64,000 bases of DNA from Escallonia rubra (Eukaryota > Streptophyta > Magnoliopsida > Escalloniales > Escalloniaceae). This document shows, piece after piece, positions 19,201 through 64,000 of this stretch (its first letter is position 1; every line of letters begins with the position of its first letter). The notes below the pieces were generated by a model, which had not been told where the DNA came from, ran no database searches, and saw only the letters and a list, made by a program, of their open reading frames with translations. The position numbers were made by a program, and so were the translations under genes. The stretch is from NCBI GenBank assembly GCA_033065855.1, contig JAVXUO010001736.1:549001-613000 (forward strand), read 5' to 3'.

Positions 19201-19738
19201 GTCTCCTTTTAGGTGATAATGGAGCACCTCAGACATCGACCTGGTGCATTTGGGAAATAAAATTTCTGAGGTGCTGACCTCAAGATTTGAATCCCAAAAT
19301 CAAGAGAGGGAACACATCTTCTTAACTAGCGTTGCAAGTTAGGTCGGGTTTTGATAGGATTAGCAATGCAATCCAAAAAAAATAAAAATAAAAGTTCATT
19401 TTTGCTCTACCCAACCCACCTAGTTACAAAATGAGTTAGGATGGATTGGTTCAATGTTAAAGTGGGTGGTTATGTTGGGTTGGTTGTAAAACCCATTTAT
19501 GTAAAATTTCATGCTCCTATCTTTTCATAGGTATTCTTAATGGCATCGGCATTCTAACCGCTGAAAGAAGGCAATTGCTATAATGACAAAATACATTACT
19601 CGACGCAGTAATATCACTAAACTAAGGCGTTTGGGGACTCATTTTCCCTTTTCCTTCCTATTTGTAAATCACATATAATGCATTAATTTTATTTGGATGA
19701 GAAATCATTTCCAAAAGCATCTCAACTCAATTCCAAAA
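16219..19738. other. Non-coding stretch after the WD40 gene
   Basis: No gene is supported. The first few hundred bases are probably the WD40 3' UTR. 18275-18640 contains clustered GGTGGT/GTGGTGG simple-sequence DNA that gives spurious open frames. The remainder is AT-rich unique-looking sequence with short repeats such as AAACTAATAGGATA (about 18515 and 18545). Confidence 0.6.
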
Positions 19739-41305: not shown

Positions 41306-42589
41306 ATATATATGGGAGCTGATCCGTTGATAGCGCTAGCAAAATGAGACAAGTTGCTAGCGCGATCTGGCCGTCCACGCGCGATCTGTGGACGGTCCAG
41401 ATCTTTTTTTTACGTTTTCTTAAGTCCGCCCGCTACATAATGTAGCGGATGATTTTTTGACAAAAATACCCTCTTTTCCATCTGCTACATTATGTAGCGG
41501 ACATCGACAGTACTTTTTTCTGACTCTTTCTCTCTCCTTTGTCTGATTAATTTTCTGACATGTTTGATGTCCGCTACATTATGTAACGGACTATTTTTTG
41601 ACAAAAATACCCTCGTTTTCATCCGCTACATTATGTAGCTGACAGAGGCAGTACGGTTCTGACCTTCTTTTCTCTTTCTCTCTCCTTTTGTCATCATTTT
41701 TCTGTCACCTTTCTGACTTTAGTCTCTTTCTCTTTCCTTTCTCTCCAATTTTCTAAGTTGTTTCTCTCTCCTTTTGTCATCATTTTTCTGTCACCTTTTG
41801 ACTTTACTCTCTTTCTCTTTCCTTTCCGGACATGTGATCCTAGTTTAGAGAAACTGGCTTTCTCTCTTTTGATGGAACCATATATTACTACTAAGAATTT
41901 CTCAGATTTCACCATAAAATGAGAATGAGAGCTTGCTAGATGAGAGCAGAGCAGACAGATGAATTGAAGCTTTATTCCATTAAGGTGGTCTCCCGGTTAA
42001 AGAAGAAAGAACCGGAGATGCTTTATTCCATAAACTGAGAACCTTGTATTCTACGGGCAAAGTATCCGTCCGCCACATAATGTGGCGGACAAGCCAAGTT
42101 TTTTTTATGTTCTTTGCTTTCAGATCTGGATCAATGGTTGCGGTTGGAACGGAAGTTAAGCTCAAGTTTGCTCAGAGAAAGGTTTACTTTGTTATGTGTT
42201 GGGTTCATGAGCAGCCAGGAGATGCTTGGTCTTCCTTAGCCGCCATTGTAAAGGCAGATTCCCAAGTATGTAGCGGTAGTGATTCTGAAATGCAATTATT
42301 AATTGTGTTCATTGCAATCTCGGGTCTAGCTGTCCAAGTTTTATTGCCGACATTCACTTTGCATAAACCTTGCTTCTTTAGAGAGAGATTTTGCAGCTGC
42401 TGCTGAGCCTTGAGACCTCCAGCAGAAACTAATCGAGCTCCGTTTGAGCTCCCAGAAGCGGCCACTAGTTCGATTGAAGCTACAGCACCAGCTCATCAAA
42501 CCTCTTGTAGAAGTACTCAATTGGTAGATTTTTCAATCCAAATAAAGGAGACAAGCAATGTCTTGACGGAGAGGATGTCGTCGCGCAGG

Positions 42590-47866: not shown

Positions 47867-47905
<39 letters not shown>

Positions 47906-48160
47906 AACATGTCAAGAAAATAACAATAAAAAGAAGAGAGAAGGAGAAAAAGGGTGTGAAACCTAGTCCGCTACATAATGTAGCGGACGTACTCGTTTTA
48001 AGCTGAAGGGTATTTTTGTCAAAAAATAGTCCGCTACATAATGTAGCGGACGTATTTAAAAAAAACACAAAAAAAGATCTGAATCGTCCACAGATCGCGC
48101 GTGGACGGCCAGATCGTGCTATCAACTTGTCCCATTTTTCTAGCGCTATATATATATAGC

Positions 48161-49345
48161 TTGATTTACTAGTTTAAATCCTTCTAATTTATCTGGAAAG
48201 TCTGGAATCTTGGGCATAGTAAATTATTAACAGAAAAACAGTTAAAAGAAAAAAAAAATTGTGATGAATGTAGTTTAGGAAAAATAAATTGCTGCCTAAC
48301 AAATATAGATCAAGATCATATAGATGAATGTTTACATATAGAAGAGTTAGAAGATCTAGACATAAAAGACTCTAATAATATAAATCTTGATATTTATAAT
48401 CAAGAAAATGTTAGTTATAATTTAATAACCTATTTTTATAACAAACCAGATATAATTAGAGGAATAGATAAATTACCTTTCATAGGAGAAGACCCCATTA
48501 AAAGATGGGATTTAAATAAAATATATTGTAAACTAGATATCATAAATCCTAATTATATAGTCAAAACAACTAATATAGAAGCAAGTAGTTTAGATGTAGA
48601 AGCCTTTAAAATGCACATAAAAGAATTAACAAACTTAAAAGTAATTAAACCAAGTAATAGCCCACATAGATCAGCTGCATTTATAGTTAGAAATCATGTC
48701 GAAATACTAAGAGGCAAAAGTAGAATGGTAATAAATTATAAAAGGTTGAATGAAAATATTAGAGATGATAGTTATAATATTCCTAATAAAACCTTTTTGC
48801 TAAGTAAGATACATGGAAAGAAAATATTTAGTAAATTTGATTGCAAGTCAGGTTTTTATCAGATTAAAATGTGGCCAGAAGACACTAGATGGACCGCATT
48901 TACTACTCCAGAAGGACTATATGAATGGCTTGTTATGCCTTTTGACCTTAAGACAGCCCCTAGTATATTCCAAAGAAAAATGGACGATATTTTTAGACCA
49001 TAGAATGATTTCATTCTAGTTTACATAGATGATATTTTGATATGTAGTAAAAATGATACAGAACATATAGCACATTTAGATTTAGCCTTTAAGCTTTTTG
49101 AAAAACATGGTTTAATTTTAAGTAAAAAGAAAATAGAATTGTTTAAAACTAATGTCAAGTTTTTAGGAATGAAAATAGGAAACGACAAAATCAAACTACA
49201 AGAACATATAGCCAAAAAGATTCTAGACTTTCTAGATAAATTAGAAGGACTTAAACAAATACAAGCCTTTTTAGGACTAGTAAATCAAGCTAGAATGTAT
49301 TTTAAAGACCTTAGCAAATTATTAGGTCCCTTATATAACAAGACT
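48161..49345 (+). mobile_element. Endogenous pararetrovirus fossil (Caulimoviridae), protease-RT region
   Basis: 48611-49345 matches caulimovirid reverse transcriptase: RMVINYKRLNENIRDDSYNI, FSKFDCKSGFYQIKMWPEDT, RWTAFTTPEGLYEWLVMPFD, the YIDDILI catalytic box and FLGMKIGNDKIKLQEHI. The upstream AT-rich stretch from about 48161 is coding-like and fits the preceding part of the polyprotein. It is a fragment, broken (a few breaks), flanked by TA repeats on both sides. Florendovirus-type insertions are known to favour TA-rich sites. Confidence 0.87.
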
Positions 49346-49398: not shown

Positions 49399-49400
<2 letters not shown>

Positions 49401-49687
49401 GAGCTGATCCGTTGAGAGCGTGGGCAAAATAGGAGAAGTTGCAAACGCGATCTGACCGTCCATCCCGAAAGATGGACGGTCCAGATCGCGTCTTTTTCAA
49501 AACCTGTCAGACGTCCGCCATACAGTATGGCGGACGGGTTTTTTTACCAAATTGCCCCTCCGCGCCTGTCCGCTACACAGTAGCGCGGAGGGCATTAATG
49601 TCCTGATGGGAGACAGCAAAAAGTCGTCCGCCATACAGTATGGCGGACGGCCCCTAGTCTGACACCTGTCAGGGCCTGTCCCGTCAG
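49399..49687 (+). repeat. MULE-A left terminal inverted repeat
   Basis: 289 bp, almost identical in inverted orientation to 60662-60950. It contains three internal palindromes: GTCCGCCATACAGTATGGCG with its partner AC at 49513, a GTCCGC...GCGGAG type at 49568, and a second perfect one at 49625, plus the hairpin CCGTCCATCCCGAAAGATGG near 49457. Confidence 0.97.
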
Positions 49688-50242
49688 TTTTTTTGGCAAT
49701 GACGGTTATCAGGTCCTTTCTGTCACGTCAACAGTGTTCGCTATATAGTTTAGCGGACGTATCGCCATCCGCGGTACTGTATTGTGGACGTTCAGTATAC
49801 TTGCAAACGGCAGTAACTACGGCAGTAACTACGGCACCACTCTTCTCCACTCACAAAATATACACTTTCTACGCAATATCCAGTCTTTACCACCGGCGTT
49901 GGCAAGCATATCGGCGACATTCCGGTGTTCAATATACCCTAAATCGATCACGTAAGTTCACAAAATCTACGATTTTTTGTCTGTAATATTCGGTTAAGAT
50001 GAATATTGCGTTTTATATATGTATGTTCTTGTTCTTGTGCAAGCGTTTGCAAAATCCGATTCCGTAATAGTATATATATTTATACATATGAGTACATATG
50101 CTAACATTGTACGTATCATTCATGTGCTAACTCGTTATATGTATTATGCATGTGCTAGCGTCGTAGTTTCGCTTCTTATTATCAAAATACAAAACGTAAA
50201 ATCCAAACTGAGAAGGTTTTTCCATAATTTCAGTTGCAAAAA
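49688..50242 (+). promoter_or_regulatory. Promoter and spliced 5' UTR of the MULE-A PMD gene
   Basis: Two more palindromes (near 49735 and 49768) are followed by a T/A-rich leader. A GTAAGT donor follows 49951 (GATCAC|GTAAGT) and a TTTCAG acceptor ends at 50233, nine bases before the ATG, so a 5' UTR intron of about 280 bp is likely. The intron carries a short TA-rich tract (50070-50095), the homologue of the site where MULE-B was split. Confidence 0.65.
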
Positions 50243-52568
50243 ATGGAATTTAACCCTGGACCTGAAGACCCATCTGTGTTATACGACCAAGCTAACCATA
50301 TCAGTACGCTCATATGGGATGGTGGAGTAAGATACATTATTTATAAACTTTTCTTATTCTTACGAACGTTGTATATACCGTTGAGAGCGCTTAAATTGTA
50401 TTTATTAATTCGTAGGAAATAGAACTTGTCAACACCGTAGAAGTATCTCGCGATATAGTATCGTGGAAACTGAACACCGCCCAGAAGAGGATACTGCGTG
50501 GAATTGGGTTTGGGATTTTCACGCATGGGCAGATATTTCAACAGCTTGACCGGGCCTTGATAGGTGCCCTTGTTGAGAGGTGGAGAAGTGAAACGAATAC
50601 GTTTCACTTCCCGCTCGGAGAGCTGGCAATTACCCTAGAAGATGTAGGGTCATCTTAGGGTTGCCGGTGACGGGGCTGCCGGTAATTGCTCCTCCGTCAG
50701 AAGCAACGAAGACGAGAACCGCTAGGGACTTCCTCCATTCGATACCCCAGGATAAATTTAGCAGTGGTGGTATAAAGTTGAAATGGTTGGTAGATACGTA
50801 CGGGGTATTGCCGGAAAACTATACGGGCCATGAGCTTGTGCTTTACACAAAAGCCTTCCTCTGGTGGGTGATGGGGGCAATTTTATTCCCAACGACGTCG
50901 AAGAACACGGCCAGCGTGAAATATTTACCGTTGTTGAGTAACCTGGCTGAGGTTGGAGATTATGCATGGGGTGCAGCGGTTCTTTCGTATCTGTACCGAG
51001 CATTGCACAAGGCAACGAGGCCCGACTCCAAAGCCATATGTGCATGTCTCTCGCTATTGCAGGTATATCATATAAATCCTGTCTTCGTTATTGTTTTTTT
51101 TTGTTTTCGCTTTTGTTGAATCGACGATATAAATATAATTTGTCCATTTTTTCAGGTGTGGTCTTATGAACACCTTGCTCCCGGTTCACCGACGCGTAGG
51201 GATGGAACCGATAGAGTGTGGCCTCGGTTGCGTGCTTGGGAGTACAGCCGGAATAATAGCCACTACCGCAGGAGAGTCGATCCCCATCACAACATCACGT
51301 TCTATCGAGGGGAGTTCGACCGCCTATCTCCGGGCCAATTGCGTTGGGCACCGTACATAGGTTTGGCGCGACGGGTGAAAGGGTCGTTCGTCTTCACGCT
51401 ATCCGGGTTGCAGCGCACACCCCTCATCCACTTCGAGGTCGCAGAGTGGCAGCTGCCAGACCGAGCAATGCGCCATTTTGAGTTGGAGCAGGGTTTGCCC
51501 GCCGGTGCCCCAGATATGAGGGTTAACAGGGACCCACCGGATGTCGGGCGGTTTGGCAAGGCCAATGCGCAAGAATTGTGCGCGGCCGAACTAGAGCTCT
51601 GGACTTCTTGGCAGGACACACTGGCGGCCATCGTCTCGGAGCCGGACCCCGTTATCAGCATCGCGGAGTATGATGAGTGGTACTCCCGCATCACGCGGAG
51701 GAGAGTAGCCCCAGTCAACTTTGAACGCGGGGCGAGGTATGCGCCTAGGGGTCAGATCGACGAGCAGATGGCATACAATCTCGTAAGTTGCCCAACTTGT
51801 CTTCAATATATCAGAACTGATTAAAGTTACTTATTTGTTATCTCTTTGGATGTAGGTTAATGCCTCGCTTGCATTCTTCCAGAAGTTGAGTGAGCGGAAG
51901 GATCTGATGAGCGCAATGGGCGAGGATCTTCGCCAACAGGCTGCTGCACTGGCTATAGGCTGCGGGAATTTTGTGCGGCAAGCATCGGGACAGTCTTCGG
52001 TCGACAGCCCGGGAATGGGTTATACGGGCGCCAGCCCGTATAACGTTGATCCCTCCGGGCAAGCTTCAGGGGTGAGCCAGGGAGTTGGTGGTCCATCTGT
52101 ACCGGGGATGGGACATGCTCAAGCGTCGTGGGCCGATTACAGCGGCCCGACCTTCGATTTGTTCCCGGAACCCCAACCCCTCTCTCAGAGTCAAGTCACG
52201 CAAGAGTGGCAATACGGTTTTAACGAGGCACTGCCCATTGTCCCGTGGGCGGGACCGATTGGCGGCACCGAAGGGCAATATCAGCGGGAGGAAGAAATGG
52301 CCGGCGAGCAATATCAGCCGGCAGGCGCCCCCGAAGGCGATTATCAGCCGGCCGGGGCCCCCGAAGGCGACTATCAGCCGGCCGATCCGTTGGTTGGAGG
52401 CCAATTTCTTCCGTTGCTCTTGCCCCCCGGCGGAGGGCAAGAGCAACCGGTCGACCCCCGAGGGCAATATCCGAAAGGGCATCCAGCCAGGCCCCTGAAG
52501 CCGCATAAACACCACCTAATCCATCACCGTTATTTTAGTGGGCCCCCCCAGACGAAGAGTCGTATGCC
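50243..52568 (+). CDS. Plant mobile domain (PMD/MAIN-like) gene, upstream half of a PMD-Ulp1 fusion
   Basis: Coding exons: 50243-50326, 50416-51062, 51156-51782 and 51856 onward, all GT-AG and phase 0. After MEFNPGPEDP and an IWDGG junction comes the PMD core: RGIGFGIFTHGQIFQQLDRA, FHFPLGELAITLEDVG, then LGLPVTGLPVIAPPSEAT, GAILFPTTSKN, GDYAWGAAVLSYLYRALHKA, and VWSYEHLAPGSPTRRDG in the next exon. A linker rich in Gly/Gln/Pro with YQPAGAPEGD repeats (about 52290-52400) leads to the protease. Compared with the second copy at 62190, one T is missing near 50650, and a C-run at about 52545 shifts frame again, so this copy probably makes no full protein. PMD proteins MAIN/MAIL1 are nuclear; PMD genes are also known in transposons. 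Confidence 0.85.
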
Positions 52569-53440
52569 GTGAAAAACCCGCAGGGCTTGGATTACAGTGT
52601 CTCGTGGAAAGAACTGTCCACGCTGGCGCCGGGGATGTGGTTAGACAACTTCGTCATCTCGCACTACGTGCAAATTCTGCGGCAAAGGAGTCGGGAGCAG
52701 CCTAACTACGGTCCGCGCATTTTTATTCTCGACGCTTACTTTCACAATATGCTAGTACAAGACTTTAACGAGTGGGACAAGGCGAGGAAGCAGGCGAGAA
52801 AGGCGAAGGCCGAGATGAAGTGGAGACCGTCCGCTAACCTACTCGCATATCTTGGTCGGCCGAGTCCAGAGCGCGCAAGTGTGGCGGATGTGTTTCTACT
52901 CCCTGCTATAATTAATGCCCACTGGTTCTTGATTTGCTATGAACCGGTAACGAATACCGTATCAGTCCTTGACAGTCTCTACGATGATACGGACGCGATT
53001 GGTGTGATTGACATGTACGTAGGCTTAGGGATGTTGAATCCAATGGTAAGAGCCTGTTTACTTCTTATTGTAACTTGCATAATGTAGAACTGATTAATCG
53101 TATTATGTTTGCTATGTTTAATGTTTAATGCTTATCCTCTTACTCGCAGAATCTATTTGCTGCCATGGTCAATAGAGAGCGTTCTCGAGAGAGCCGAGGG
53201 AGGGCAGCGGGCGATAGGGAGGTTGTTTTCCGATTGAAGAGGACTAGGCCCAAGCAACTTAATACCTCGGACTGCGGCGTCTACCTCTGCATGTACATGG
53301 ATTACATCTGTCGGTCGGAGAGCCTCAAGAAGACCGTCTGGACCCAAGACTGCATAGACTGCTTTAGGTATAGGATGGCTTGGCAAATTATCAATGGCCG
53401 GCCTAGACCTATTAGATATATTGTAAATCCGTGTAATTGA
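52569..53440 (+). CDS. Ulp1-type SUMO protease domain (C48 peptidase), downstream half of the fusion
   Basis: Exons 52569-53045 and 53150-53440 (255 codons). The C48 catalytic set is complete: His in INAHWFLICYE (52920), Asp in SVLDSL (52971), Gln in RPKQLNTSDCGVY and Cys in the same motif (53273). GMWLDNFVISHYVQIL and the RIFILDAYFHNML block are the substrate-side elements of Ulp1 domains. The open frame has no ATG-defined 5' boundary of its own in a good context; adding one base to the C-run at about 52545 would join it with the PMD linker (51856-53045 is one base short of whole codons). Such proteases cleave SUMO; ULP-like genes carried by Kaonashi MULEs are described in Arabidopsis. Confidence 0.88.
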
Positions 53441-54576
53441 CAATGTTTGCGTATAATAACGTCCGCTATATTGACTTGGCTATTTGTCCTTAAACTTCTT
53501 GAATCTTATCGTTTGAATGCGATTGACGATTTCATCTGTGTTGACTGAGATGTGATCGTTGTTGAATGCGATTGATTTGATGCGTTTGATTTGATTCATT
53601 GATATGGTTGTGTTGTTCAGCTGAGTGTTTTATTTGTTCTGTGTGATTTGCTTTCAGCAGGGGAGACTAGATATGGCCGAAAAAAAACTAAGTGTTGTGG
53701 AAAGTACATTCTGCTTGGCTGTCCGCGATATAGTTTAGCGGACGTAGATAGGGCCCCAAATAAAACCAAGTGTTGGGGAGGCTATATTCTGCTTGGCTGT
53801 CCGCGATATAGTTTAGCGGACTTAAATAGGATTCTGCTTGGCTGTCCGCGATATAGTTTAGCGGACGTGAATAAGGCCCCAAAAAAAACTAAGTGCTGGG
53901 GAGGGAGGCTACATTCTGCTTGCTGTCCGCGATATAGTTTAGCGGACGTAAATAGGGCCCCGAAAAAAACTAAGTGCTGGGGAGGGAGGGTACATTCTGC
54001 TTGGCTGTCCGCGATATAGTTTAGCGGACGTAAATAGGGCCCCAAAAAAAACTAAGTGCTGGGGAGGGAGGGTACATTCTGCTTGGCTGTCCGCGATATA
54101 GTTTAGCGGACGTAAATAGGGCCCCGAAAAAAACTAAGTGCTGGGGAGGGAGGGTACATTCTGCTTGGATGTCCGCGATATAGTTTAGCGGACGTAAATA
54201 GGGCCCCAAAAAAAACTAAGTGCTGGGGAGGGAGGCTACATTCTGCTTGCTGTCCGCGATATAGTTTAGCGGACGTAAATAGGGCCCCGAAAAAAACTAA
54301 GTGCTGGGGAGGGAGGGTACATTCTGCTTGGCTGTCCGCGATTTAGTTTAGCGGACGTAAATAGGGCCCCAAAAAAAACTAAGTGCTGGGGAGGGAGGGT
54401 ACATTCTACTTGGCTGTCCGCGATATAGTTTAGCGGACGAAAATAGGCCCCCAAAAAAAACATATATTCCCAACATTTTACATGCTTCAAAAGACGGGAT
54501 ACACCAATTAGAATGACATGTGGATGAGTGCCGGTTGGAATGAAATCCTAGCATGCAGTAGAAAGAGATATATATA
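53441..54576. repeat. Tandem palindrome array between convergent MULE-A genes
   Basis: Between 53690 and 54450 there are ten copies of an approximately 82-bp unit, each containing GTCCGC-GATATAGTTTA-GCGGAC (first at 53721, then 53799, 53843, 53925, 54007, 54089, 54171, 54252, 54333 and 54416), followed by AATAGGGCCCC, an A-run and AAGTGCTGGGGAGGGAGG. One unit is shortened to 44 bp. Every unit can form a hairpin. The long open frames over it are artefacts. The array lies between the 3' ends of the protease gene (+) and small protein B (-). Confidence 0.93.
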
Positions 54577-55011
54577 TCACTCTTCATTTGACATATACTC
54601 ATCAGATAAGTACTGATCATTGGTTAAAATATTGTTTCTCTCGTTTGATGTGAGCTGCCTCCCACTAGCCTCGGCCATTTCTTCCGCAAGTTGAAGCATA
54701 TAAAATCGTTTTCTACGCAGCAACATCCGGTTATTCTCCATACGAATTTGGCGCACAGCTTTCTTACACTGCGTAACATTACGCCGCGACATAGTAAGTG
54801 AACGACGTTGCGGCACAGGTGCACTCAGCGTGGTGAGATCCTGGTGTAGCGCTTCTGATTCCTTAACTCGATATGCCCATTCTCTCCGTAAACCGCAATA
54901 ATACTCTCTGGGATCCGTGTACTTCACTTCTTTGTAGTCGTCGTTCCTTTCACACAACAACCACACAGTCTCACGTCCCCGCAGACTAGAACTCCCAGGA
55001 ACTCCTGCCAT
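54577..55011 (-). CDS. Small coiled-coil-like protein B of MULE-A, 144 aa, unknown family
   Basis: Intact frame from MAGVPGSSSLRGRETVWL to YLSDEYMSNEE. It is paralogous to protein A (55399-55830): both share LRxEWxYRxxExExL, PxPxxxxxxMxRxxxxxxxxAxxxIRxENNRMxxRxxR and AxxxxExxG at the same spacing. Predicted from sequence: mostly charged helix, basic middle (about residues 70-115), acidic C-terminal tail; no signal peptide, membrane segment or cysteine motif. It diverges from protein A across a 387-bp shared upstream region. I do not recognise the family. By position it may be an accessory factor of the transposon, comparable in place (not in sequence) to MURB or VANC; this is inference. Confidence 0.75.
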   Translation of the reverse strand: MAGVPGSSSLRGRETVWLLCERNDDYKEVKYTDPREYYCGLRREWAYRVKESEALHQDLTTLSAPVPQRRSLTMSRRNVTQCKKAVRQIRMENNRMLLRRKRFYMLQLAEEMAEASGRQLTSNERNNILTNDQYLSDEYMSNEE

Positions 55012-55398
55012 TTAACTTTGTTTTGGTTCTAAAGCGATGAGCATGGCTAACATATATAAATAAGCCCACATACCCATACACAATATATTTGTGTGATAGC
55101 TACACAATAGTCTGTCTATCTCTTGTGACAAGACAAGTCGCTGGACATTGAAGATGACAATAGTTGGAGACAACAGCATGCCCGTGTCATAAAGTTGACA
55201 AGTCTTTGGTGACAAGACAATTCTCTTTGGTGACAAGACAAGTCTCTAGTCTATTGCCAACGTTGGGTCACATCTCATAAAGTTGAAACTGTAGCTCTTT
55301 CATAAAGTGGTCCCGTTTCAAAGTATATATAAGTACATGCATTGCTCATTGCAATGGGCATAGAGTGATATACTCCCAATTTCATAACAACTCTGGAA
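55012..55398. promoter_or_regulatory. Putative bidirectional promoter between small proteins B and A
   Basis: 387 bp between two divergent start codons. TATATATAAGTA near 55325 lies about 70 bp before the ATG of A, and TATATAAATAAG (minus-side TATA candidate) near 55052 lies about 40 bp before the ATG of B. The repeated word GTGACAAGACAA(G/T)(T/C) occurs at about 55128, 55211 and 55231 and could be a shared control site. Function is inferred from layout. Confidence 0.5.
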
Positions 55399-55830
55399 AT
55401 GTCATATACTCCACGAGATATTTTTGAAGCAATGGGTCGTTACTGGGCGGGCGAAGATGAATTTTACTATTCTTTGCGTCCAAGTTTGCGTTACTCATCA
55501 AGCTATGTGAATACATTACGTGCAGAATGGTCTTATCGGATGAATGAACACGAGGTCCTAGTAGCTGATTCACGGAGCATGAATATACCCATACCTCGAC
55601 AAAAGGCAATCAACATGCCTCGAATTACGCACATGGAGCTTGAAAGGGCACTTCATCGAATACGCGAGGAAAATAATAGAATGCGAGTTCGTCAAAGTAG
55701 GCATAACTTACGTCGTATGGCACGTGATGCACATGAAGATGGCAACAACAATGAAGCACAAGTATACTGGAACATGAGCTTCGAAGAAGGAAATGTTTCC
55801 GATGCTCCAGTTTCAGATGAAGATGCCTGA
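55399..55830 (+). CDS. Small coiled-coil-like protein A of MULE-A, 143 aa, unknown family
   Basis: Intact frame from MSYTPRDIFEAMGRYWAGED to VSDAPVSDEDA. Aligned motifs shared with protein B are given there; in A they read LRAEWSYRMNEHEVL, then IPIPRQKAINMPRI and IREENNRMRVRQSRHNLRR. The middle is strongly basic and the tail acidic, suggesting a nucleic-acid- or chromatin-related protein, but no known domain is visible. The two proteins differ at most positions outside these motifs, so the duplication is old while both frames have stayed open, which argues for function. Confidence 0.75.
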   Translation: MSYTPRDIFEAMGRYWAGEDEFYYSLRPSLRYSSSYVNTLRAEWSYRMNEHEVLVADSRSMNIPIPRQKAINMPRITHMELERALHRIREENNRMRVRQSRHNLRRMARDAHEDGNNNEAQVYWNMSFEEGNVSDAPVSDEDA

Positions 55831-55842
55831 AGATCGAGTTCT

Positions 55843-56218
55843 ATAGCGGACATAAGGGCCTCCGCTTAGGCCGGGGTTCGGGAAGGTCGGAACTAAGTGT
55901 CTGGTCCGTGCCAACCATTTTCTGGTCCAAGTTGCAGACAACCATTTTTCTCTCCTAGGTCCGCTATATAGTATAGCGGACATCCCCGCAGAGGCAAAGT
56001 CTCGGACATTTGATTGTCCCTACGAGATGTCCGCTATATAGTATAGCGGACAGCTCCGCAGCGGTGGTTCTACGCCCGCACAATACAGTACGAAGCTTAC
56101 GTCATAGTGGTGCAGCAGATCGTTGTCTGCAACTTGGACCAGAAAATGGTTGGCACGAACCAGACACTTAGTTCCGACCTTCCCGAACCCCGGCCTAAGC
56201 GGAGGCCCTTATGTCCGC
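55843..56218. repeat. Long inverted repeat between convergent MULE-A genes
   Basis: Arms of about 100 bp (55848-55946 and 56120-56218) match almost base for base in inverted orientation: ATAAGGGCCTCCGCTTAGGC, CGGGGTTCGGGAAGGTCGG, CTGGTCCAAGTTGCAGACAA. The loop carries two perfect-type palindromes (GTCCGCTATATAGTATAGCG at 55967 and 56028). It begins 13 bp after the stop of protein A and ends before the B3 gene's 3' side. Confidence 0.92.
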
Positions 56219-56560
56219 TATGTAGTAGAGCTAGAAGTTGTAGCGTTCTGCAGTTTTAATAAATTGGCTTGTTTTAGTCGCATTGTAGCATAATGCTGTT
56301 TTAATAAATTGGCGCCCCGAAGACTTGTTTTGGCGTCAGAATCAACAACCTCAATATCGATAAACAATAAAGAACGTAGGATTCACAATCAACGATCTCA
56401 ATATACCGACGGAATCTCAAACGACACAATTAACGTACGATTCACAATCAACGATCTTAATATATCGAGGGAATCTCAAACGACACAATTGAGCACAATT
56501 AAGCGAGGAAAAATTTCGAGGTGATTCAACAACAACATAAATAATTTTATTAATAATAAA
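56219..56560. other. Spacer with direct repeats between protein A and the B3 gene
   Basis: Contains TTTTAATAAATTGGC twice (about 56250 and 56299) and ATTCACAATCAACGATCT twice (about 56380 and 56440) with GGAATCTCAAACGACACAAT following both. No gene is seen. It may hold the 3' UTR of the B3 gene. Confidence 0.6.
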
Positions 56561-57029
56561 TTAGGGTTCACATTGGGGGAAAGAAATTTTTTCACAAGTG
56601 CTCCGATCAAAGATTACAACTTGAAAATCCCACCACCCAAGGTGTTCAAACACTACAAAGTCCCCGAGTTCGAGGCCATGCTGGCGCACGAAGACGTTCC
56701 AACCCTCTGCAAATTGCTTTTTTTGGGGTCGGCCGGGCTTCAGCTTGATTTCAACCTGCCATGCCCCCTTGCGGCTATATAATCTTGCACTGTCATGAAT
56801 TGTTGTAAATTGATTGGTCAAGGCTTCCGGTATGTCCTAACAAACACAACACAAAAAATACGTTAGTTTTTAACCAAAACATCAAACCTTTAACACACGA
56901 CAATACAGAGAAATAGGGATGGCCTACAAGTTCATTCTCAAACCCCGGCATCATGACTTTGAAAAAGTGTTTGCCTGCCAGGTGCAAGTTGCCAATAAAA
57001 TCGTTGGTGGTCTCCGATCCAGAAGCCAT
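56561..57029 (-). CDS. B3 DNA-binding domain protein (REM-like), 125 aa, inside MULE-A
   Basis: Two exons on the minus strand: 57029-56928 and 56836-56561, joined in phase 0 through a GTAGGC donor and TTGTTAG acceptor. The joined product starts MASGSETTNDFIGNLHLAGK and forms a complete B3 fold: HFFKVMMPGFENEL, DIPEALTNQF, GAWQVEIKL, FAEGWNVFVRQHGLELGDF, VVFEHLGWWDFQVVIFD, ending with CEKISFPQ. These match the strand order of plant REM/B3 proteins, which bind DNA. It has nothing beyond one B3 domain. The frame is open and both splice sites are normal, so it is probably expressed. A B3 gene inside a MULE suggests capture from the host, perhaps turned to a use of the element. Confidence 0.88.
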
Positions 57030-57642
57030 CGAGGTCGGCGTTGAGGGGAGGACGGATTAACGCCGGAGTTCTGGGCCACCGGAGATGTGGGTGCCGGAGA
57101 CGGAGTAGCGGCAGCAGATGTTCGAGACAGAGAGAGGTGCCCTCAGATAGGACTGATAACAGCTGACTTAGCGATATGATTAATATATATAGTAGGATAG
57201 AGTTATCCGCCACTTTATATGGCGGACACCAAAAGTTTTTCTTCGATGACGTCCGCTATATTGTATAGCGGACGTCAATGAAGACCAAAAGTTTTACTGC
57301 TCATGAGGTCCGCTATATGGTATAGCGGACGTGAAAGCCCAAAAGTTTTTCTTCGATGACGTCCGCTATATTGTATCGCGGACGTGAATGAAGACCAAAA
57401 GTTTTATTGCTCATGAGGTCCGCTCTATGGTATAGCAGACGTGAAAGCAGACCAAAAGTTTTTCTGCGATGACGTCCGCTATATTTTATAGCGGACGAGG
57501 CTTAAAAAAAAATTTAAAAATAAGAGACTATACATTTAATTCGATGGCCTCTCATTCTCTCCATTTTTTAATATTTCCAGCATTCGGAGGAAAAATTATC
57601 CCTCCAAAAATTATTACAAATGTCATAACGTTGTACAAAAAA
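57030..57642. repeat. Palindrome array between the B3 gene and the transposase
   Basis: 57195-57497 contains six palindromes of the type GTCCGCTATATTGTATAGCG plus GAC, separated by AAAAGTTTT(T/A)CT and alternating GATGA/CATGA linkers, with a period of 50-60 bp. Some copies have one stem change (for example TATCGCGGAC, CTCTATGG). It lies between the 5' side of the B3 gene and the 3' end of the transposase. Confidence 0.9.
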
Positions 57643-59940
57643 TTAAAGGTCCACTGCAGCTTGTTCGTCCTCGTCTTCGGCGTCACCTTCTTCCCCGTCT
57701 TGCAAACCCCCCGAACTTATCCCCAGTGCCTTGTAATGGTTCCGCTTGTCGTGGTCGGTCATTTTGTTGCACAATGCACACCTTCGCAGCTTTTTAGGTT
57801 GAGTTGCCGTTTCAATAGAGCTTTTCATCCGCGTAGATCTCTTGCGGCCTTTCGTTTGCGATATAATTGGGTCCAACAAACAAATATCATTGTCGTCTTC
57901 CTCCCCCGGCTCGTCATCTTCTGATACCCCCGTCGTAGGCTCGGTGTCAATCGCACTGGTGACAGCGGCTGCTTCCAACTGGTCGATGATGGGCTCTTGC
58001 TGCTGAGCTACCTCGAGGAGATGTTTATAACCGACCATTGAAGCAGCAGCCTTTACGGACAAACGGGTGAAACTCGTCACCAGATGATTATACCGCAACG
58101 TCTCCGATTCTTCAAAGTCAGTATACGGGTGCTCCGGAAAAGCAATGGTACCGTGCAACCTGTTTGCACCTTTCGTCCACCGTGGCAAGACGTATTTATC
58201 GGGGATTGTCCTGATATTCTTCTGGGTGAAAAAGCGCAGAATGTGTCTACACAGGATGCCATGGAACTCAAACTTCTTGCAAACACATGTCACCGAGTCC
58301 GTCAATGTGTCGTGGCTCACCGTATACATTCTGCGCAGCTTCTCAGGAACGAGGTCATTCACGAGCGAATAAACCTTGTACTCACGCGTAGACTTCTCCG
58401 CCACCTTGTTTATACAGTACCGTCCCGATTTCTGCAGCTCTACTTGGTATAGCAAGAAGATCTCCTTCGTATAGACTTTGGCACCGTTCAGCTCCAGCGG
58501 GGTCTCAAGCAACCTTCTCCTCTGTTTGTACGTGGTTGCAAAGTCTGCAGCCCTTTCTTTCACGAACAACGACGCAACCGCTTTCTGTGCGGATGTGACG
58601 AAACTCTTCAAATTGGTAGCTGTACCCACGTAACTATCGAACGTGGCATTCATAGATTCACTCCTGCCCGTCGTTCTCATGCCCGCAGAAAAATGCCTCC
58701 TCGTGTAAACGCCAATCCATTGCTCTTTGAGCTCGTACAAGTGCTGGAGCCACCCGTTGTCTTGCAATGAGTAATCCTGAACAAGCTTTTCCCACCTCTC
58801 CTCAAATTCCTCAATAGTTAACGACTTGCTAACGCACGTGTCAAAATCCTGTTTAAATTCTGGAAACTTTGCGTACACGTGATGCAAACGTTCGGGGTAT
58901 TTGTTGCTTATGTGCCAAGTGCACAAGTTGTGTCGAGTATCTGGGAAGACGGTGGCAATAGCCTTCTTCATTGCCAAATCTTGATCGGTGATGATAACGT
59001 TGGGTGCTTTGAAGTTCATGGCTTCCAGCCACACACTAAACAACCATTCAAAAGAACTCTCGCTCTCGTCCCTTAACAAAGCGAACCCGAACAGGATGGA
59101 GTGATAATGATGATTGACCCCCGTGAAAGGGGCAAACGGCATCGAGTACTTGTTGGTACGGTATGTGGTGTCGAAAGTCACGACATCCCCAAAATGCTTA
59201 TAAGCAAGCCTGGAACGACCGTCGACCCAAAAAATTGTGCTAACTCGATGCTCGTCGTCAAGTTTATAATCGAAGGTAAACTGCGGGTCCTCCATCTGCA
59301 TCCGCTTCAATAGGCTCATTGTGGCTTGAGCATCATTGAGGTCATACGCGGCTCGTCTATGGGTTCGGACCGCGTTGCGAACGTCTGTCGTGTTAAAGTT
59401 TAAATTCTGAATTCCCCCGGCCTGTTCAGCAAGAACATTAATCATGTCGGTAGGTCCTAGACGCGCATCGCTCATTGTGTGAATGAGGCTCCTCGCGACC
59501 TTTCCCATCTTCTTGTGTTGATGCATCTGACTCACCTTAGAAGGGGTTACTAACGGGTGATTGTGTGCCAGTTCCAGGCTGCTAATAAGCCAATGATCTT
59601 GCTTGGGTTTATAGCTTACGAACATCTTGACCTGGCAATTCGTTCGCGCAAAGAAGTCCCGTCTTCTGCGCGAATAGCCTATTTCGTCATCACTGTCCTC
59701 GTTGCCTACGTGTGTCTCATTTTGCACTGGGTTTCTGCCCCTATGGCACTCGTACATACGAGAGCATATCTTTCTCATTATGTTGCTCGTTCTTGAAGTC
59801 TTTATTCTAATGCCAAATCCAACCCTCAATGAATACGCTCGGAAACATTCTCTAGCTTCCTCCAATGTTTGAAAGGTTCGTCCTAGATACGGATCACTAG
59901 CATCTACGGGGGTGTTGGAGCTCGACACGAAATCAGACAT
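57643..59940 (-). CDS. FAR1/MURA-type MULE transposase, intact, 765 aa
   Basis: One uninterrupted exon from MSDFVSSSNTPVDASDPYLG. Residues about 25-130 form a FAR1-type DNA-binding domain (EECFRAYSLRVGFGIR-like start, RTNCQVKMFVSY, LELAHNHPL). The MULE DDE domain carries Asp257 (VVTFDTTYRTNKY), Asp319 (NVIITDQDLAMKKAI), the CTWHISNK motif at about 340 and Glu428 (TTGRSESMNATF). A SWIM zinc finger follows (Cys552, Cys554, Cys564, His566: CVCKKFEFHGILCRHI). The C-terminus has an acidic region and a KRSTRMKSS basic patch, and a CALCNKMTDHDKRNHY cysteine/histidine cluster. All catalytic residues are present. The product should cut at the terminal repeats. It is the rightmost gene of MULE-A and reads inward from the right end. 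Confidence 0.96.
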   Translation of the reverse strand: MSDFVSSSNTPVDASDPYLGRTFQTLEEARECFRAYSLRVGFGIRIKTSRTSNIMRKICSRMYECHRGRNPVQNETHVGNEDSDDEIGYSRRRRDFFARTNCQVKMFVSYKPKQDHWLISSLELAHNHPLVTPSKVSQMHQHKKMGKVARSLIHTMSDARLGPTDMINVLAEQAGGIQNLNFNTTDVRNAVRTHRRAAYDLNDAQATMSLLKRMQMEDPQFTFDYKLDDEHRVSTIFWVDGRSRLAYKHFGDVVTFDTTYRTNKYSMPFAPFTGVNHHYHSILFGFALLRDESESSFEWLFSVWLEAMNFKAPNVIITDQDLAMKKAIATVFPDTRHNLCTWHISNKYPERLHHVYAKFPEFKQDFDTCVSKSLTIEEFEERWEKLVQDYSLQDNGWLQHLYELKEQWIGVYTRRHFSAGMRTTGRSESMNATFDSYVGTATNLKSFVTSAQKAVASLFVKERAADFATTYKQRRRLLETPLELNGAKVYTKEIFLLYQVELQKSGRYCINKVAEKSTREYKVYSLVNDLVPEKLRRMYTVSHDTLTDSVTCVCKKFEFHGILCRHILRFFTQKNIRTIPDKYVLPRWTKGANRLHGTIAFPEHPYTDFEESETLRYNHLVTSFTRLSVKAAASMVGYKHLLEVAQQQEPIIDQLEAAAVTSAIDTEPTTGVSEDDEPGEEDDNDICLLDPIISQTKGRKRSTRMKSSIETATQPKKLRRCALCNKMTDHDKRNHYKALGISSGGLQDGEEGDAEDEDEQAAVDL

Positions 59941-60661
59941 TGTGAAACAGCTCCCTATATGTAGAAATATAGACTACGCTGAACAATCAAATGACATTTT
60001 CAACTGAAAATATTACCTTAAAATTATCGTGACAAATAGACAAATTTAAGATGACAAATATACCATATACATAATCTCAAAAGTCTCCCATTTTGCTAAT
60101 TATAGATTTATTGAACATAACAAATTACAATTACTAAGAGCGTTAGACAAATTCATCATGCCAAAATACAACAAACGTATCTAAAAAAATTCGAATTTAA
60201 ATAGGATAGATGTGCCGAAGTTAGCGCCCCTCAAAAAATCCAAAATTAACTACAATAAACTTCTTTAAAGTTAACAAATTAATTTCTAGAACATCATCAG
60301 AAATTTATATTTTTTTGCCCAAAATAAAAAATATACTTTATCAGTCAATCCACCCAGAAAATATCTGAGATGAGAAACTTACCTTGCTTGAGTGAAGAAG
60401 ATTGAAGCAAGTTTTACTCGAAGAAGCTTGAGGGGAGCCAGAAATGGAAGCCAGGTGAATCCGAAGGAGAAGAAAATTTTGCGGGAAGAGCTTGAGAATT
60501 TTGCGGGATGAGCTGAGAATTCAGGAAAGAGAGCTGAGAATCAGGAACCTCGGGGGTATACGGGAAGCACCTGTCCGCGCGCGTGTGAGGAAATTATTTC
60601 GCTCTACTGTATAGCGGATACCTTTTTTGCTGTCTCGTGTCAGGCAGGGGTCAGTGTCAGG
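59941..60661 (-). promoter_or_regulatory. Promoter and probable spliced 5' UTR of the transposase
   Basis: On the minus strand a GTAAGTTTC donor (CAAG|GTAAGT, about 60380) and an acceptor shortly before the ATG (ATATAG|GGAGCTG, about 59957) define a likely 5' UTR intron of about 420 bp. The exon before it, about 60382-60560, is free of upstream long frames. The rest of the spacer to the terminal repeat includes one imperfect palindrome near 60600. Confidence 0.5.
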
Positions 60662-60950
60662 CTGACGGGACAGGCCCTGACAGGTGTCAGACTAGGGGCC
60701 GTCCGCCATACTGTATGGCGGACGACTTTTTGCTGTCTCCCATCAGGACATTAATGCCCTCCGCACTACTGTGTAGCGGACAGGCGCGGAGGGGCAATTT
60801 GGTAAAAAAACCCGTCCGCCATACTGTATGGCGGACGTCTGACAGGTTTTGAAAAAGACGCGATCTGGACCGTCCATCTTTCGGGATGGACGGTCAGATC
60901 GCGTTTGCAACTTCTCCTATTTTGCCCACGCTCTCAACGGATCAGCTCCC
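60662..60950 (-). repeat. MULE-A right terminal inverted repeat
   Basis: Inverted partner of 49399-49687. The outermost bases GGG at 60950-60948 are followed by a TA microsatellite. The one internal difference is in the palindrome CGCACTACTGTGTAGCGG (C/T). Confidence 0.97.
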
Positions 60951-60992
<42 letters not shown>

Positions 60993-61568: not shown

Positions 61569-61720
61569 GGGAGCTGATCCGTTGCTAGCGCTGGCAGGCT
61601 TGCCAGCGCTGTTTTGCCGTCCGCTACATAATGTAGCGGACGTCAACTATCGTCCGCTACATTATGTAGCGGACGGCAAAACAGCGCTGGCAAGCCTGCC
61701 AGCGCTGGCAATGGATCACG

Positions 61721-61724
<4 letters not shown>
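61569..61724. mobile_element. 156-bp MITE related to the MULE termini
   Basis: The two halves are inverted copies of about 74 bp: GGGAGCTGATCCGTTGCTAG... on the left and GGGTCGTGATCCATTGCCAG... on the right (complement), then identical through AGCGCTGGCAGGCTTGCCAG and CCGCTACATAATGTAGCGG. Only nine bases (TCAACTATC) lie between the arms. TA repeats border both sides. It must be moved by a transposase in trans, plausibly one like that of MULE-A. Confidence 0.92.
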
Positions 61725-61739
<15 letters not shown>

Positions 61740-61757
<18 letters not shown>

Positions 61758-64000
61758 CCAGCATGTGAACTTATGTGAGCACATGTTAGCGTTGTATGTA
61801 TTATGCATGTGTCAGCGTTGTACTTGCCGTTTTTTCATAATTTCAGTTGCAAAAAATAGATTTTAACCCTGGAATGGTGAAGTAAGATACTTATTTTATC
61901 AACTTTCTTATTCTCACGAACATTGTATACCGTTTGCTTTGCTTAAATTGTATTTATTAATTCGTAGGAAATAGCACTTCTCAACGCAATAGAATTATCT
62001 GATAATTTCAAAGCATGAAAATTGAACAAATACCAGAAAAGATTACTGTGTGGAATTGGGTTTAGGATTTTCACGCATGGGCAGATATTTCAACACCTTG
62101 ACCGATACTTAATAGGTGCTCTTGTTGAAATGTGGAGAAGTGAAACAAATATGTTTCACTTCCATCTCGGAGAGATGACAATCACCCTAGAAGATGTAGG
62201 GTTCATCTTAGGGTTACCGGAGACGGGGCGGCCGGTAATTGCTCCTATGTCGGAAGCAACGAATAAGAGAACCGCTAGGAACTTCTTTACTTCGATACCT
62301 AAGGATCAATTTAGCACTGGTGGTATAAAGTTGAAGTAGTTGCTAGATACCTACAAGGTTCTGCCGGAAAACTACACGGATGAGATGTTTATGCTGTACA
62401 CACAGGCCTTCCTCTTGTGGGTGATGGGGGCAATTCTATTCCCAACGACGTCGAAGAATACGATCAGTGTCGAATATTTATCGTTGTTGGGTAACCTGCG
62501 GGAGGTTGGGGATTATGCCTGGGGTGCAGCAACTCTTGCGTACATGTACCGAGCATTGCACAAGGCAACGAGGCCCGACTCCAAAGCTATATGTGCATGT
62601 CTCTCGCTATTGCAGGTATATCATATAAATCTTGATTACGTGTTCGATTTTTTTTTGTTGAATCGACAATAAATTTTGACGATACTATATATAATTTCTC
62701 TTTGTTCTCAGGTGTGGTCTTATGAACACTTTGATACCGGCACACCCAGGCGTAGGGACGGAACCGATAATGTGTGGCCTCGGTTGTGCGCTTGGGAGTA
62801 CAGCCAGAATGAGAGCCACTACCCGAGGAGAGACGATCCCCATCACAACATTACATACTATCGAGGGGAGTTCGACTCGCTATCTCCGGACCAAATGTGA
62901 TGGGCACCGTACAAACATTTGGCGCGACGGGTGGGAGAGTTGTTCGTCTTCACGCTCTCCGGGTTGCAACGCACACCCTTGATCCACTTCGAGGTCTCAG
63001 ACATACAGCTTTCAGATCACGCAATGCGCCATTTTGACTGCCCTAGGGGTCAGATCAATGAGAAGTGGGCAATTGGTCTCGTAAGTTGCCCAACAAGTGC
63101 TTTTAATTGAATTTGATGATTCTAAGTGTGTGTTTGAAGTTACTTATTATCTCTTTGGATGTAGGTTAATGCCTCGCTCTCCTTCTTCCAGAAGTTGAGT
63201 GAACGGAATGATATGGTGGATGCAATGGGCGAGGATCTTCGCCAACAGGCTGATGCGTTGGCGTTTGGTTGCAGAAATTTTTTGCACCAAGCATTAGGAT
63301 AGCCTTTGGGCGTCAGCCCGGGAATGGGTTATCCGGGGTGGTAGCCTCCCTATGTAAGCGAGGGATACGGTGATCCCTCGGGACAGACTTCGGGGGTGAA
63401 TGAGGGAGTTAGTGGTCCCTCTGTAGCGGGAATGGGTGGTGATTGGGGACTGCCAAGCACCATGGGACATGCTCAAGCACCGTAGGATGATTACAGTGTC
63501 CCCTCGTTCTTTTTGTTTTGGGACTCGGAACCCCTACCCCTCTCTTAGAGTCAAGTCACGCAAGACTGGGGTTTCAGAAACATCAGTCTCTCCGAGACAC
63601 TGCCCATCGTCCCGTGGGCGGGACTCTCTGGCGCCCCCGGAGGGCAATATCCCCTGGTTGACCCCCCCCGAAGGGCAATATCAGCCGGCCAAACCCCCCG
63701 GAGGTGGATATACCTCGGTCGACCCCCCCCCCCCCCAGAGGGCAATATCCCTCAGTCGCCCCCCCCCCCTTATCGCAAAGGGCATCCATTGAAGCCCCTA
63801 AAGCAAGAAAAATGCCAACTAATCCGAGCTCGTTATTTTAGCGGGGGCCCCCCCGAGACAAAGCGTCATATAGTATGGATCACCCGGAGGGCATGGATTA
63901 CTGTTGCTCGTGGGGAGAAATGTCATCCCTGGCTCCGGGGGATTGGTTGATGGATAATGTCATCTCGTACTACGTGGAGATTCTGAAGCGAAGGAATCAG
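61740..64000 (+). mobile_element. MULE-B, right part: second, decayed PMD-Ulp1 copy
   Basis: It starts in a TA run and continues with the 3' half of the 5' UTR intron (CATGTTAGCGTTGTATGTAT, TTTCAGTTGCAAAAAATAG, compare 50100-50243), then PMD and Ulp1 sequence to the window edge. The sequence that should precede it matches 40605-41305 instead of anything next to it, so the copy was split at its intronic TA tract. The right end lies beyond the window. Confidence 0.8.
61968..64000 (+). pseudogene. PMD-Ulp1 fusion gene, second copy, partial and decayed
   Basis: Exons by homology to MULE-A: 61968-62615, 62712-63080 and from 63165. The start codon region reads ATAG instead of ATGG near 61858. The PMD core is readable (FHFHLGEMTITLEDVGFIL, GLPETGRPVIAPMSEATN, GDYAWGAATLAYMYRALHKA) and here the frame is continuous where the MULE-A copy has lost a base. 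Breaks include TAG at 62337 (Trp in MULE-A), TGA at 62898, an internal loss of about 85 codons after HAMRHF (near 63035), and several stops in the Pro/Gln linker. The Ulp1 domain begins near 63875 (HPEGMDYCCSWGEM, LAPGDWLMDNVIS) and runs off the window. Confidence 0.85.

Follow-up and report, generated by a model that had tools for sequence, protein, structure and literature searches.

Several groups of plant Mutator-like elements (MULEs) carry genes other than the transposase. The closest described counterparts of the element reported here are the VANDAL elements of Arabidopsis, whose VANC proteins act against silencing. According to the available parts of the published accounts, VANC binds a short motif whose tandem repeats build up outside coding sequence (PMC5735166), and some VANC genes also carry a Ulp1 domain (PMC13317346). 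The available part of a broader survey describes VANDALs as having no terminal repeats, or short degenerate ones, although some clade members have repeats of 46–174 bp, and its table lists half of the VANDAL group members as bearing a plant mobile domain (PMD) and/or a DUF (PMC6446971). Proteins with a PMD offer a further precedent. The sections consulted report a DNA motif enriched in the promoters of genes that require the PMD proteins MAIN and MAIL1 (PMC7156037), and an anti-silencing function proposed for the PMDs of MULEs (Ikeda 2017, PMC5418596).

Here we describe a complete 11.55-kb MULE from Escallonia rubra (GCA_033065855.1, contig JAVXUO010001736.1). It lies in a 64-kb window (contig positions 549,001–613,000), the whole stretch of DNA that was analysed, and coordinates below are those of the window. 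At slightly less than even odds (about 0.48), we propose that its family carries its own sequence-specific anti-silencing module, working like the VANC of Arabidopsis VANDALs.

A young element and its six-part gene set

The element (49401..60951) is inserted in a (TA)n microsatellite. TA repeats, some of them short, flank all 11 copies inspected on both sides and mask any target site duplication of 8–11 bp. The terminal inverted repeats (left, 49401..49687, +; right, 60662..60951, −) are 287–288 bp long and near-identical, as the initial annotation had claimed; its count of about three differences gives way to one substitution and one gap in the 288 columns of an alignment of 49401–49687 with 60662–60949. 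The ends read GGGAGCTGATCC in most sister copies and CGAGCTGATCC at the left end of the window copy.

The transposase (765 amino acids, 57643..59940, −), previously annotated as FAR1-type, matches the Pfam domains MULE (PF10551, 2.8e-32), FAR1 (6.7e-13) and SWIM (3.7e-5). Its reading frame is open in eight of ten copies, and it is present in all eight family representatives. The transposase domain and terminal inverted repeats identify the element as a MULE, the (TA)n insertion of all 11 copies as a TA-microsatellite-targeting one, and a PMD (PF10536, 1.9e-70) on the strand opposite to the transposase as a PMD-MULE. The family is young and recently active, and its intact members are probably autonomous.

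The PMD gene (50243..52538, +) has exons at 50243–50326, 50416–51062, 51156–51782 and from 51856, with ends placed by eye from splice signals. It is followed by the Ulp1 (Peptidase_C48) part (52539..53440, +; exons 52539–53045 and 53150–53440). Joined exons of the sister copy C400 match PMD at 1.9e-70 and Peptidase_C48 at 1.8e-15, and pieces of the window copy match both families too. Both domains had been annotated as one gene, the PMD continuing into Ulp1; both are present, but a single continuous protein is not established because the two frames differ at a poly-C run (52542) in seven of ten copies. The PMD frame is open in seven of ten copies and broken in three, and changes among copies comprise 24 nonsynonymous, 6 nonsense and 14 synonymous. 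In the window copy, the loss of one base near 50649 shifts the frame; none of the ten other copies aligned shares this deletion. By its Peptidase_C48 domain, Ulp1 is a predicted protease of the Ulp1/SENP type, in which the catalytic tetrad is H-D-Q-C. In a comparison with SENP2 (1tgz), the stretch with the catalytic C aligns well (32.8 bits) and that with H and D weakly (−0.4 bits). Ulp1 is fast-evolving (dN/dS 0.57–0.82). DUF1985, the domain that VANC bears, falls below the cut-off in the joined PMD-Ulp1 exons (E 0.29), which match PMD and DUF7745 (2.1e-6) instead.

Two divergently oriented genes encode the orphan proteins SP1 (144 amino acids, 54577..55011, −) and SP2 (143 amino acids, 55399..55830, +), which are paralogues (35% identity across 78 amino acids, E 5e-16), as had been suggested. 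A Pfam search returned no family for SP1 and just a sub-threshold match for SP2 (E 0.03), and a search for SP2 homologues found none at E 0.01. A structure model of SP2, built from two sequences, is helical and of low confidence (pLDDT 62, pTM 0.35). The remaining gene encodes a two-exon protein of 125 amino acids (56561..57029, −; exons 57029–56928 and 56836–56561), in which the DNA-binding B3 domain named in the initial annotation is complete (positions 1–100 of 101, 1.9e-9, above cut-off); its closest PDB match, VRN1, is weak (E 0.029).

A fixed-length palindrome in arrays and terminal repeats

A 23-bp palindrome of fixed length, GTCCGC-N11-GCGGAC, occurs 20 times in the window copy, never overlapping a gene model, and at 19,579 places in the genome, compared with 2 for a reversed control. 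Ten lie in array A (53699..54476), an internal tandem array of ~82-bp units more than 4 kb from either element end, with the inner sequence GATATAGTTTA in nine and GATTTAGTTTA in one. A pair between SP2 and B3 (55959..56051) has the inner sequence TATATAGTATA. Array B (57222..57512), upstream of B3, with the B3 start on one side and the transposase stop on the other, holds four perfect palindromes (57251, 57308, 57361 and 57474) together with changed ones. Each terminal repeat contains two, at 49513 and 49626 on the left (49513..49648; inner sequence CATACAGTATG) and at 60701 and 60814 on the right (60701..60836). Neither the palindrome arrays nor the TA-microsatellite location figured in the initial annotation.

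The spacer downstream of Ulp1 holds arrays in all eight elements compared. With up to two mismatches allowed, each element has 8–20 array sites, and mononucleotide shuffles give no more than 0.03. The array units show concerted evolution. A single array-A variant fills 12/12, 13/13 and 10/10 of the GAT-type sites in three copies, and between three families the palindrome differs by 0.00–0.12 versus 0.33–0.37 for its flanks. The arrays of older elements contain many changed units. An independent origin of the family arrays was ruled out, as the spacers align at 65–82% and have a diverged unit in common. Five palindrome clusters were fetched by the motif alone; three are MULEs bearing the gene set described above, and the other two, both adjoining TA runs, have no match to these genes.

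Palindromes in the terminal repeats are what transposase sites would look like, and they count against an anti-silencing module. The palindromes might be bound by the transposase (or by B3 or SP as a co-factor) for complex assembly or for transposase titration, the accessory proteins then serving transposition. The presence of the transposase in every family representative suits this explanation, as do the two gene-less loci beside TA runs, which are as expected of non-autonomous members. We nevertheless consider it somewhat unlikely, given that half of the window palindromes are internal and far from the ends, that internal arrays are kept in all eight elements and that these arrays change in concert, like VANC targets.

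The placement of array B would also suit operators. PMD, B3 and SP might repress or time their own element, for copy-number control or tissue restriction, through palindromes beside the genes for B3, Ulp1 and the transposase. B3 is a domain of transcription factors, and the host PMD proteins MAIN and MAIL1 function in silencing according to the available part of PMC5418596. Self-repression is a poor fit with the at least 145 SP1 and at least 149 B3-exon copies that are free of stops among the best-scoring matches, a sample biased to intact copies, and we judge it improbable.

Whether the inner bases pair was assessed in 50 different palindromes selected for exact half-sites, with relatedness uncorrected. 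Positions 7–17 pair in 32 of the 50, a count that none of 2000 shuffles reaches (23.3 in shuffles), and positions 9–15 in 27 versus 19.4 (reached by 23 of 2000). Pairing shows no excess at 8–16 (40 versus 40.7), 10–14 (49 versus 49.0) or 11–13 (24 versus 22.8, reached by 810 of 2000). The two co-varying pairs would accord with nucleic-acid hairpins (a cruciform or an RNA stem), such as small-RNA or recombination sites, in place of protein targets. The other three pairs do not rise above shuffles and arms of 11 bp are short for a small-RNA precursor, which makes hairpins a highly improbable explanation.

The inner 11 bases of the palindrome track the Ulp1 clade, an association that rests on a handful of clades; in the arrays of the C1419 clade they read TACATTGTATR. 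The B3 gene, including its intron, is near-identical across two clades whose Ulp1 differ at dS about 0.55. Ulp1 and the arrays are physically linked, and the clades differ in their transposase as well, so this co-segregation does not single out PMD-Ulp1. C1 and C9:512k are 76% identical in Ulp1, yet their inner sequences differ.

Maintenance of the gene set

The initial annotation had proposed that the six parts be regarded as a selected unit if several loci shared their order and substitutions in the genes were biased to synonymous sites. All nine of the others fetched have the same gene order, and the SP1, SP2 and B3 frames are each open in 10/10 copies. Only 6 of 1,245 sites vary in these three genes, compared with 125 of 2,489 in non-coding DNA, and this roughly tenfold lower variation (p 6e-16) disfavours neutral hitchhiking. 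Among the best 150 matches per gene, an SP2 is listed no more than 2.5 kb from SP1 at 109 of the 150 SP1 places, in divergent orientation in 108, and the order B3–SP2–SP1 holds in all 68 places where the three are listed. The gene set also recurs in divergent families reached via the palindrome alone. The SP pair was not found in four of the eight family representatives (C1419, C2950, C3084 and C9:512k) and would be an optional helper. A maintained set thus stands, on shared order, low variation and recurrence; a universal six-part one does not.

An early dN/dS table had suggested that B3 evolves fast; with intact families included, this holds only for three elements that are older and in part decayed (C1, C9:208k and C9:512k; dN/dS 0.52–0.75). 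Host gene capture is frequent in MULEs, according to the available part of PMC13317346, but functionless host fragments captured by Pack-MULE-like transduplication are almost certainly the wrong explanation for accessory genes with open frames and low variation that are present in divergent families and stop-free in 145/150 (SP1), 146/150 (SP2) and 149/150 (B3 exon) best-scoring matches, which are biased to intact copies, and chance capture is ruled out by the order in nine of nine copies, the low variation and the order in 68 of 68 places.

A candidate anti-silencing module and its known counterparts

We favour an anti-silencing module because the gene set is kept, its accessory genes vary little, the palindrome is abundant and evolves in concert, and the inner motif tracks Ulp1. 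VANC, Ulp1-bearing VANC genes, MAIN/MAIL1 and the PMDs of MULEs provide precedents. The element-encoded PMD-Ulp1 and B3 would bind the palindromes in the arrays and terminal repeats, with B3 the most probable protein to read the GTCCGC half-sites directly. PMD would be the chromatin component acting at bound palindromes, where Ulp1, judging by its domain, perhaps removes SUMO. As an outcome, the elements and related non-autonomous elements that bear the motif may stay expressed or hypomethylated. A chromatin or silencing role of the gene set, as the initial annotation had suggested, is consistent with the motif arrays and with VANC as a precedent. The fast evolution of Ulp1, the B3 dN/dS of 0.52–0.75 in older families, the PMD broken in three of ten copies, the unmatched DUF1985, the inner-sequence mismatch of C1 and C9:512k and the changed units of older arrays all count against the module.

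A more elaborate version is possible, if doubtful. The genes may form a multi-component counter-silencing system independent of VANC in origin, with a PMD-Ulp1 effector, a B3 reader and an optional SP pair acting via the palindrome; cassettes would be swapped between MULE clades, and arrays and PMD-Ulp1 would change together.

If the anti-silencing reading is true, the VANC-like strategy is recurrent among plant MULEs, beyond Arabidopsis VANDALs, and the module draws on the PMD family, where such a role was no more than a speculation of Ikeda et al. It would provide a defined motif in cis, a genome-scale set of targets and candidate readers whose natural divergence allows tests of specificity, and would put sequence-guided epigenome editors on offer. 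Mechanism aside, two features are unusual: a MULE of several genes whose accessory members vary little, and a palindrome of fixed length in some 20,000 copies.

Among known systems, Kaonashi (KIU) and other ULP-MULEs of Arabidopsis, melon, rice and grapevine likewise carry a Ulp1-type protease; the available part of PMC13317346 places Kaonashi in MULEs that are of the non-TIR type and have three coding genes, and mentions neither PMD nor B3. PMD-MULEs (Ikeda 2017, PMC5418596; groups 42 and 45–50 of Dupeyron 2019, PMC6446971) share the transposase and PMD, often antisense, whereas the available parts of these descriptions do not mention the PMD together with Ulp1, B3, an SP pair or a motif array; neither Ulp1 nor C48 occurs in PMC6446971. 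MuTAnT, Micron, SaTar and TAFT (PMC4486113, PMC5907723) also insert into (TA)n and have autonomous and short non-autonomous members, and MuTAnT ends likewise open with a G-run. The only ORF of the 4.9-kb AutoMuTAnT is that of its transposase, whereas the Escallonia element has 11.6 kb and accessory genes.

Like the VANDAL/VANC system of Arabidopsis (KIU; Hosaka 2017, PMC5735166; Sasaki 2023, PMC10398659), the Escallonia element is a multi-gene MULE with an accessory gene, possibly with Ulp1, and a short motif in non-coding tandem repeats that undergo gain, loss and concerted change from copy to copy. Unlike VANDALs, it has terminal repeats of 287–288 bp, a PMD with no DUF1985 match (E 0.29), and an added B3 gene and SP pair. 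The VANDAL motif is YAGTATTAY, whereas the Escallonia family has a putative anti-silencing function and, as its motif, a palindrome of 23 bp with some 20,000 sites.

Gene content and sister copies

The window's own MULE (W; 49401-60951) is flanked by TA repeats on either side, and its terminal repeats, aligned over 288 columns, show 1 substitution and 1 gap. From left to right, W carries a plant mobile domain (PMD) gene with a Ulp1 part (+), a tandem array of palindromes (array A), the small-protein genes SP1 (-) and SP2 (+), two further palindromes, a B3 gene (-), a second array (array B) and the transposase (-). The transposase matches the Pfam families MULE (2.8e-32), FAR1 (6.7e-13) and SWIM (3.7e-5); joined exons match B3 (1.9e-9) and, in the sister copy C400, PMD (1.9e-70) and C48, the peptidase family of the Ulp1 part (1.8e-15). 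SP1 and SP2 share 35% identity across 78 amino acids. Neither has a Pfam family above cut-off, and SP2 had no match at E 0.01 among 5.8 billion proteins, a collection whose plant share is uncertain.

We searched the genome (566 Mb, 3222 contigs; the window is G000:C2128:549001-613000) with the left repeat and scored the best 40 of 2644 candidates, so the copies described are the closest ones. Nine loci whose two ends lie 11-12 kb from each other were fetched, together with C2160, an internal deletion without the SP pair, B3, Ulp1 and the transposase end. The initial annotation had proposed looking for the six-gene order in copies with the same termini, and all nine other full-length copies from these best-scoring matches have it. 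Their own terminal repeats differ by 0-4 substitutions. Aligned to the window over long stretches, these copies mostly show 97-99% identity, with 96-100% in the gene regions. TA repeats are the site of all 11 copies examined, window included. Some copies have an additional repeat end, 84-91% identical, immediately beyond their left end: L021 (C1286:641-1015), C1285:143658-144044 and C897:159482-159749.

The SP1, SP2 and B3 frames are open in 10/10 copies (SP2 with an in-frame 15-base deletion in one), the transposase frame in 8/10 and the PMD frame in 7/10, the exceptions for PMD being the window, C2162 and C1905. Ulp1 is open in all ten if read downstream of a poly-C run at 52542, which has 7 C in seven copies, 8 C in two and 9 C in one. 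A run of 8 C puts PMD and Ulp1 in one frame; for the other copies an intron, frameshifting or two separate proteins are possible.

The genome-wide counts for SP1, SP2 and B3 are drawn from the best-scoring matches, and intact copies are therefore over-represented: 145 of the best 150 SP1 matches (1355 candidates) are stop-free, at 94-100% identity, as are 146 of the best 150 for SP2 (1355 candidates) and 149 of the best 150 for B3 exon 2 (1394 candidates), 103 of which are identical to that of the window. A listed SP2 lies within 2.5 kb of 109/150 best SP1 places, divergently in 108. The order B3-SP2-SP1 holds in 68/68 places with all three among the matches listed, and 65/150 best B3 places have no SP among the matches listed within 4 kb.

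Palindromic arrays and related families

W contains 20 copies of the palindrome GTCCGC-N11-GCGGAC. Array A (between Ulp1 and SP1) has 10 of them and array B (between B3 and the transposase) has 4; another 4 lie in the terminal repeats, and 2 at 55959 and 56029. None overlaps a gene model. The nine other full copies have 16-29 palindromes each, and the genome has 19,579, compared with 2 places for the reversed pattern. At GAT-type sites of array A, GATATAGTTTC stands in place of GATATAGTTTA in C2355 (12/12), C1286 (13/13) and C400 (10/10). Both forms occur in C1794 (7 and 3), C1289 (9 and 5) and C838 (6 and 7, plus 2 of another type), and GATATAGTTTC does not occur in the window, C2162, C1905 or C2451. 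This pattern is concerted change, and the replacement makes the palindromic site more symmetric.

Five palindrome clusters were fetched by motif alone from the first places listed genome-wide. Three proved to be MULEs that carry a transposase, B3 and PMD-Ulp1; two of these families (L036/L031 and L030) also have the SP1-SP2 pair, flipped as a unit compared with its arrangement in the window. No match to the transposase, B3, PMD-Ulp1 or SP genes came up in the remaining two (C9:40.5-46.9k and C12), both of which adjoin TA runs. Four further representatives were picked from B3 and SP1 matches: C490, which has the SP pair, and C1419, C2950 and C3084, in which it was not found. Counting W, the pair was not found in 4/8 representatives. 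In C3084, B3 exon 1 and a large part of the transposase are missing as well, and deletion may therefore have taken more at this locus; part of PMD was not found in C2950. All eight have an array in the post-Ulp1 spacer, with 8-20 sites each at up to 2 mismatches, compared with at most 0.03 in mononucleotide shuffles.

A flanking anchor, independent of the palindrome, also located array units: 8 each in W and C1, 14 in C9:208k (13 entered the comparison) and zero in C9:512k. Among W, C1 and C9:208k, the consensus difference is 0.00 in the left half-site, 0.12 in the inner part and 0.11 in the right half-site, and 0.33 and 0.37 in the unit flanks. The arrays of the older elements contain altered units: in C9:208k, 6/14 differ at both outer bases, for which CpG decay could be an alternative cause.

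The surroundings of W hold other mobile sequences. MULE-like pieces lie at 40650-42150 (5 palindromes, and a GGGAGCTGATCCGTTGA end adjoining a TA run) and 47870-48170 (2 palindromes). Reverse-transcriptase fragments at 48188-49342 (RVT_1, 3e-16 and 1.2e-12; pararetrovirus-like by eye) stop in the TA run that hosts W. On the right are a short non-autonomous element of ~160 bp between TA runs (61571-61756), with a W-like GGGAGCTGATCC-type end and palindromes at 61619 and 61652, and a second, decayed PMD-Ulp1 gene (61760-64000), the PMD pieces of which are 61-77% identical to those of W.

Constraint and mosaic ancestry

Across ten copies, SP1, SP2 and B3 have 6 variable sites in 1245, whereas non-coding alignment columns have 125 in 2489 (p 6e-16). 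This reference comprises six segments, gap columns and repeat-rich segments included; a seventh, around the first PMD intron, was excluded as largely coding (3 variable in 231). Even the least variable segment, the SP1-SP2 spacer (34.8 per kb), is ~7x as variable as SP1/SP2/B3. The transposase (22 variable sites in 2298; 9 synonymous, 13 nonsynonymous) did not differ from the accessory genes among the ten copies (p 0.16). Changes were 7 synonymous and 8 nonsynonymous in Ulp1; 14, 24 and 6 nonsense in PMD; and 2 and 4 in SP1, SP2 and B3 combined, too few sites for a ratio of their own.

Between families, with some values from part of a gene only and ratios raised by stops in older relatives, dN/dS is 0.21-0.35 for the transposase, 0.27-0.58 for SP2, 0.40-0.57 for SP1 (1.10 against C490, from 5 changes), 0.30-0.65 for PMD (0.86 against C490) and 0.57-0.82 for Ulp1. 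For B3 it is 0.52-0.75 in three older families and 0-0.26 (1-3 changes) in the other four.

The palindrome half-sites are nearly constant among families. W has the inner consensus GATATAGTTTA, and C490, whose Ulp1 is 94% identical to that of W, has GATATAGTATA. C1 and C9:208k (Ulp1 79% identical) share TATATAGTATA, present in one orientation or in both, and C9:512k has TACACAGTGTA (Ulp1 76% identical to C1 and 66% to C9:208k). For C1419, C2950 and C3084, whose Ulp1 are mutually 92-94% identical and 55-56% identical to that of W, the inner consensus is TACATTGTAT[ACG], again in one orientation or in both. The B3 genes of these last three are nearly identical to that of W (dS 0.013-0.027), compared with dS of 0.16-0.22 for the transposase, 0.31-0.38 for PMD and 0.54-0.57 for Ulp1. 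Between C1419 and W (56450-57050), ~600 bp of DNA, B3 intron included, is 92-96% identical per bin; the two flanks of this block are less alike, at 38-68% and 79-89%. From this intron-including block with a drop on both sides, we infer a recent exchange of B3 between transposon clades. Because B3 is near-identical across clades with different inner motifs, the inner motif tracks PMD-Ulp1 (or the transposase) rather than B3. The sequences suggest a two-part code, in which constant half-sites would go with an exchangeable B3 and a clade-specific inner part with PMD-Ulp1.

Proposed function and known systems

These elements keep a gene set together, amplify a fixed-length palindrome in non-coding arrays that change in concert, and have genes of mosaic ancestry. 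By analogy with VANC, the most likely reading is that element-encoded proteins bind the palindromic motif and, once there, would counter silencing. Auxin response factors provide a B3 precedent, as their B3 dimers can read inverted repeats.

Several components were already known: TA targeting by MULEs (PMC4486113, PMC5907723), MULE-borne PMD genes, which are often antisense and also occur in some VANDALs (PMC6446971), and Ulp1 in MULEs (PMC13317346). In the literature covered, which includes few subscription papers or preprints and excludes Repbase, we found no report joining Ulp1, a plant mobile domain and a transposon, and, among the papers listed, no description of the full combination of W by title or abstract start. 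The closest parallels are in VANDAL elements. Localization in VANDAL21 depends on target motif density, with the motifs in dynamic tandem repeats (PMC5735166), and VANDAL non-coding regions are RdDM targets (PMC10398659). Some VANC genes carry Ulp1 (PMC13317346), and an anti-silencing role for the PMDs of MULEs was a speculation of Ikeda et al. (PMC5418596).
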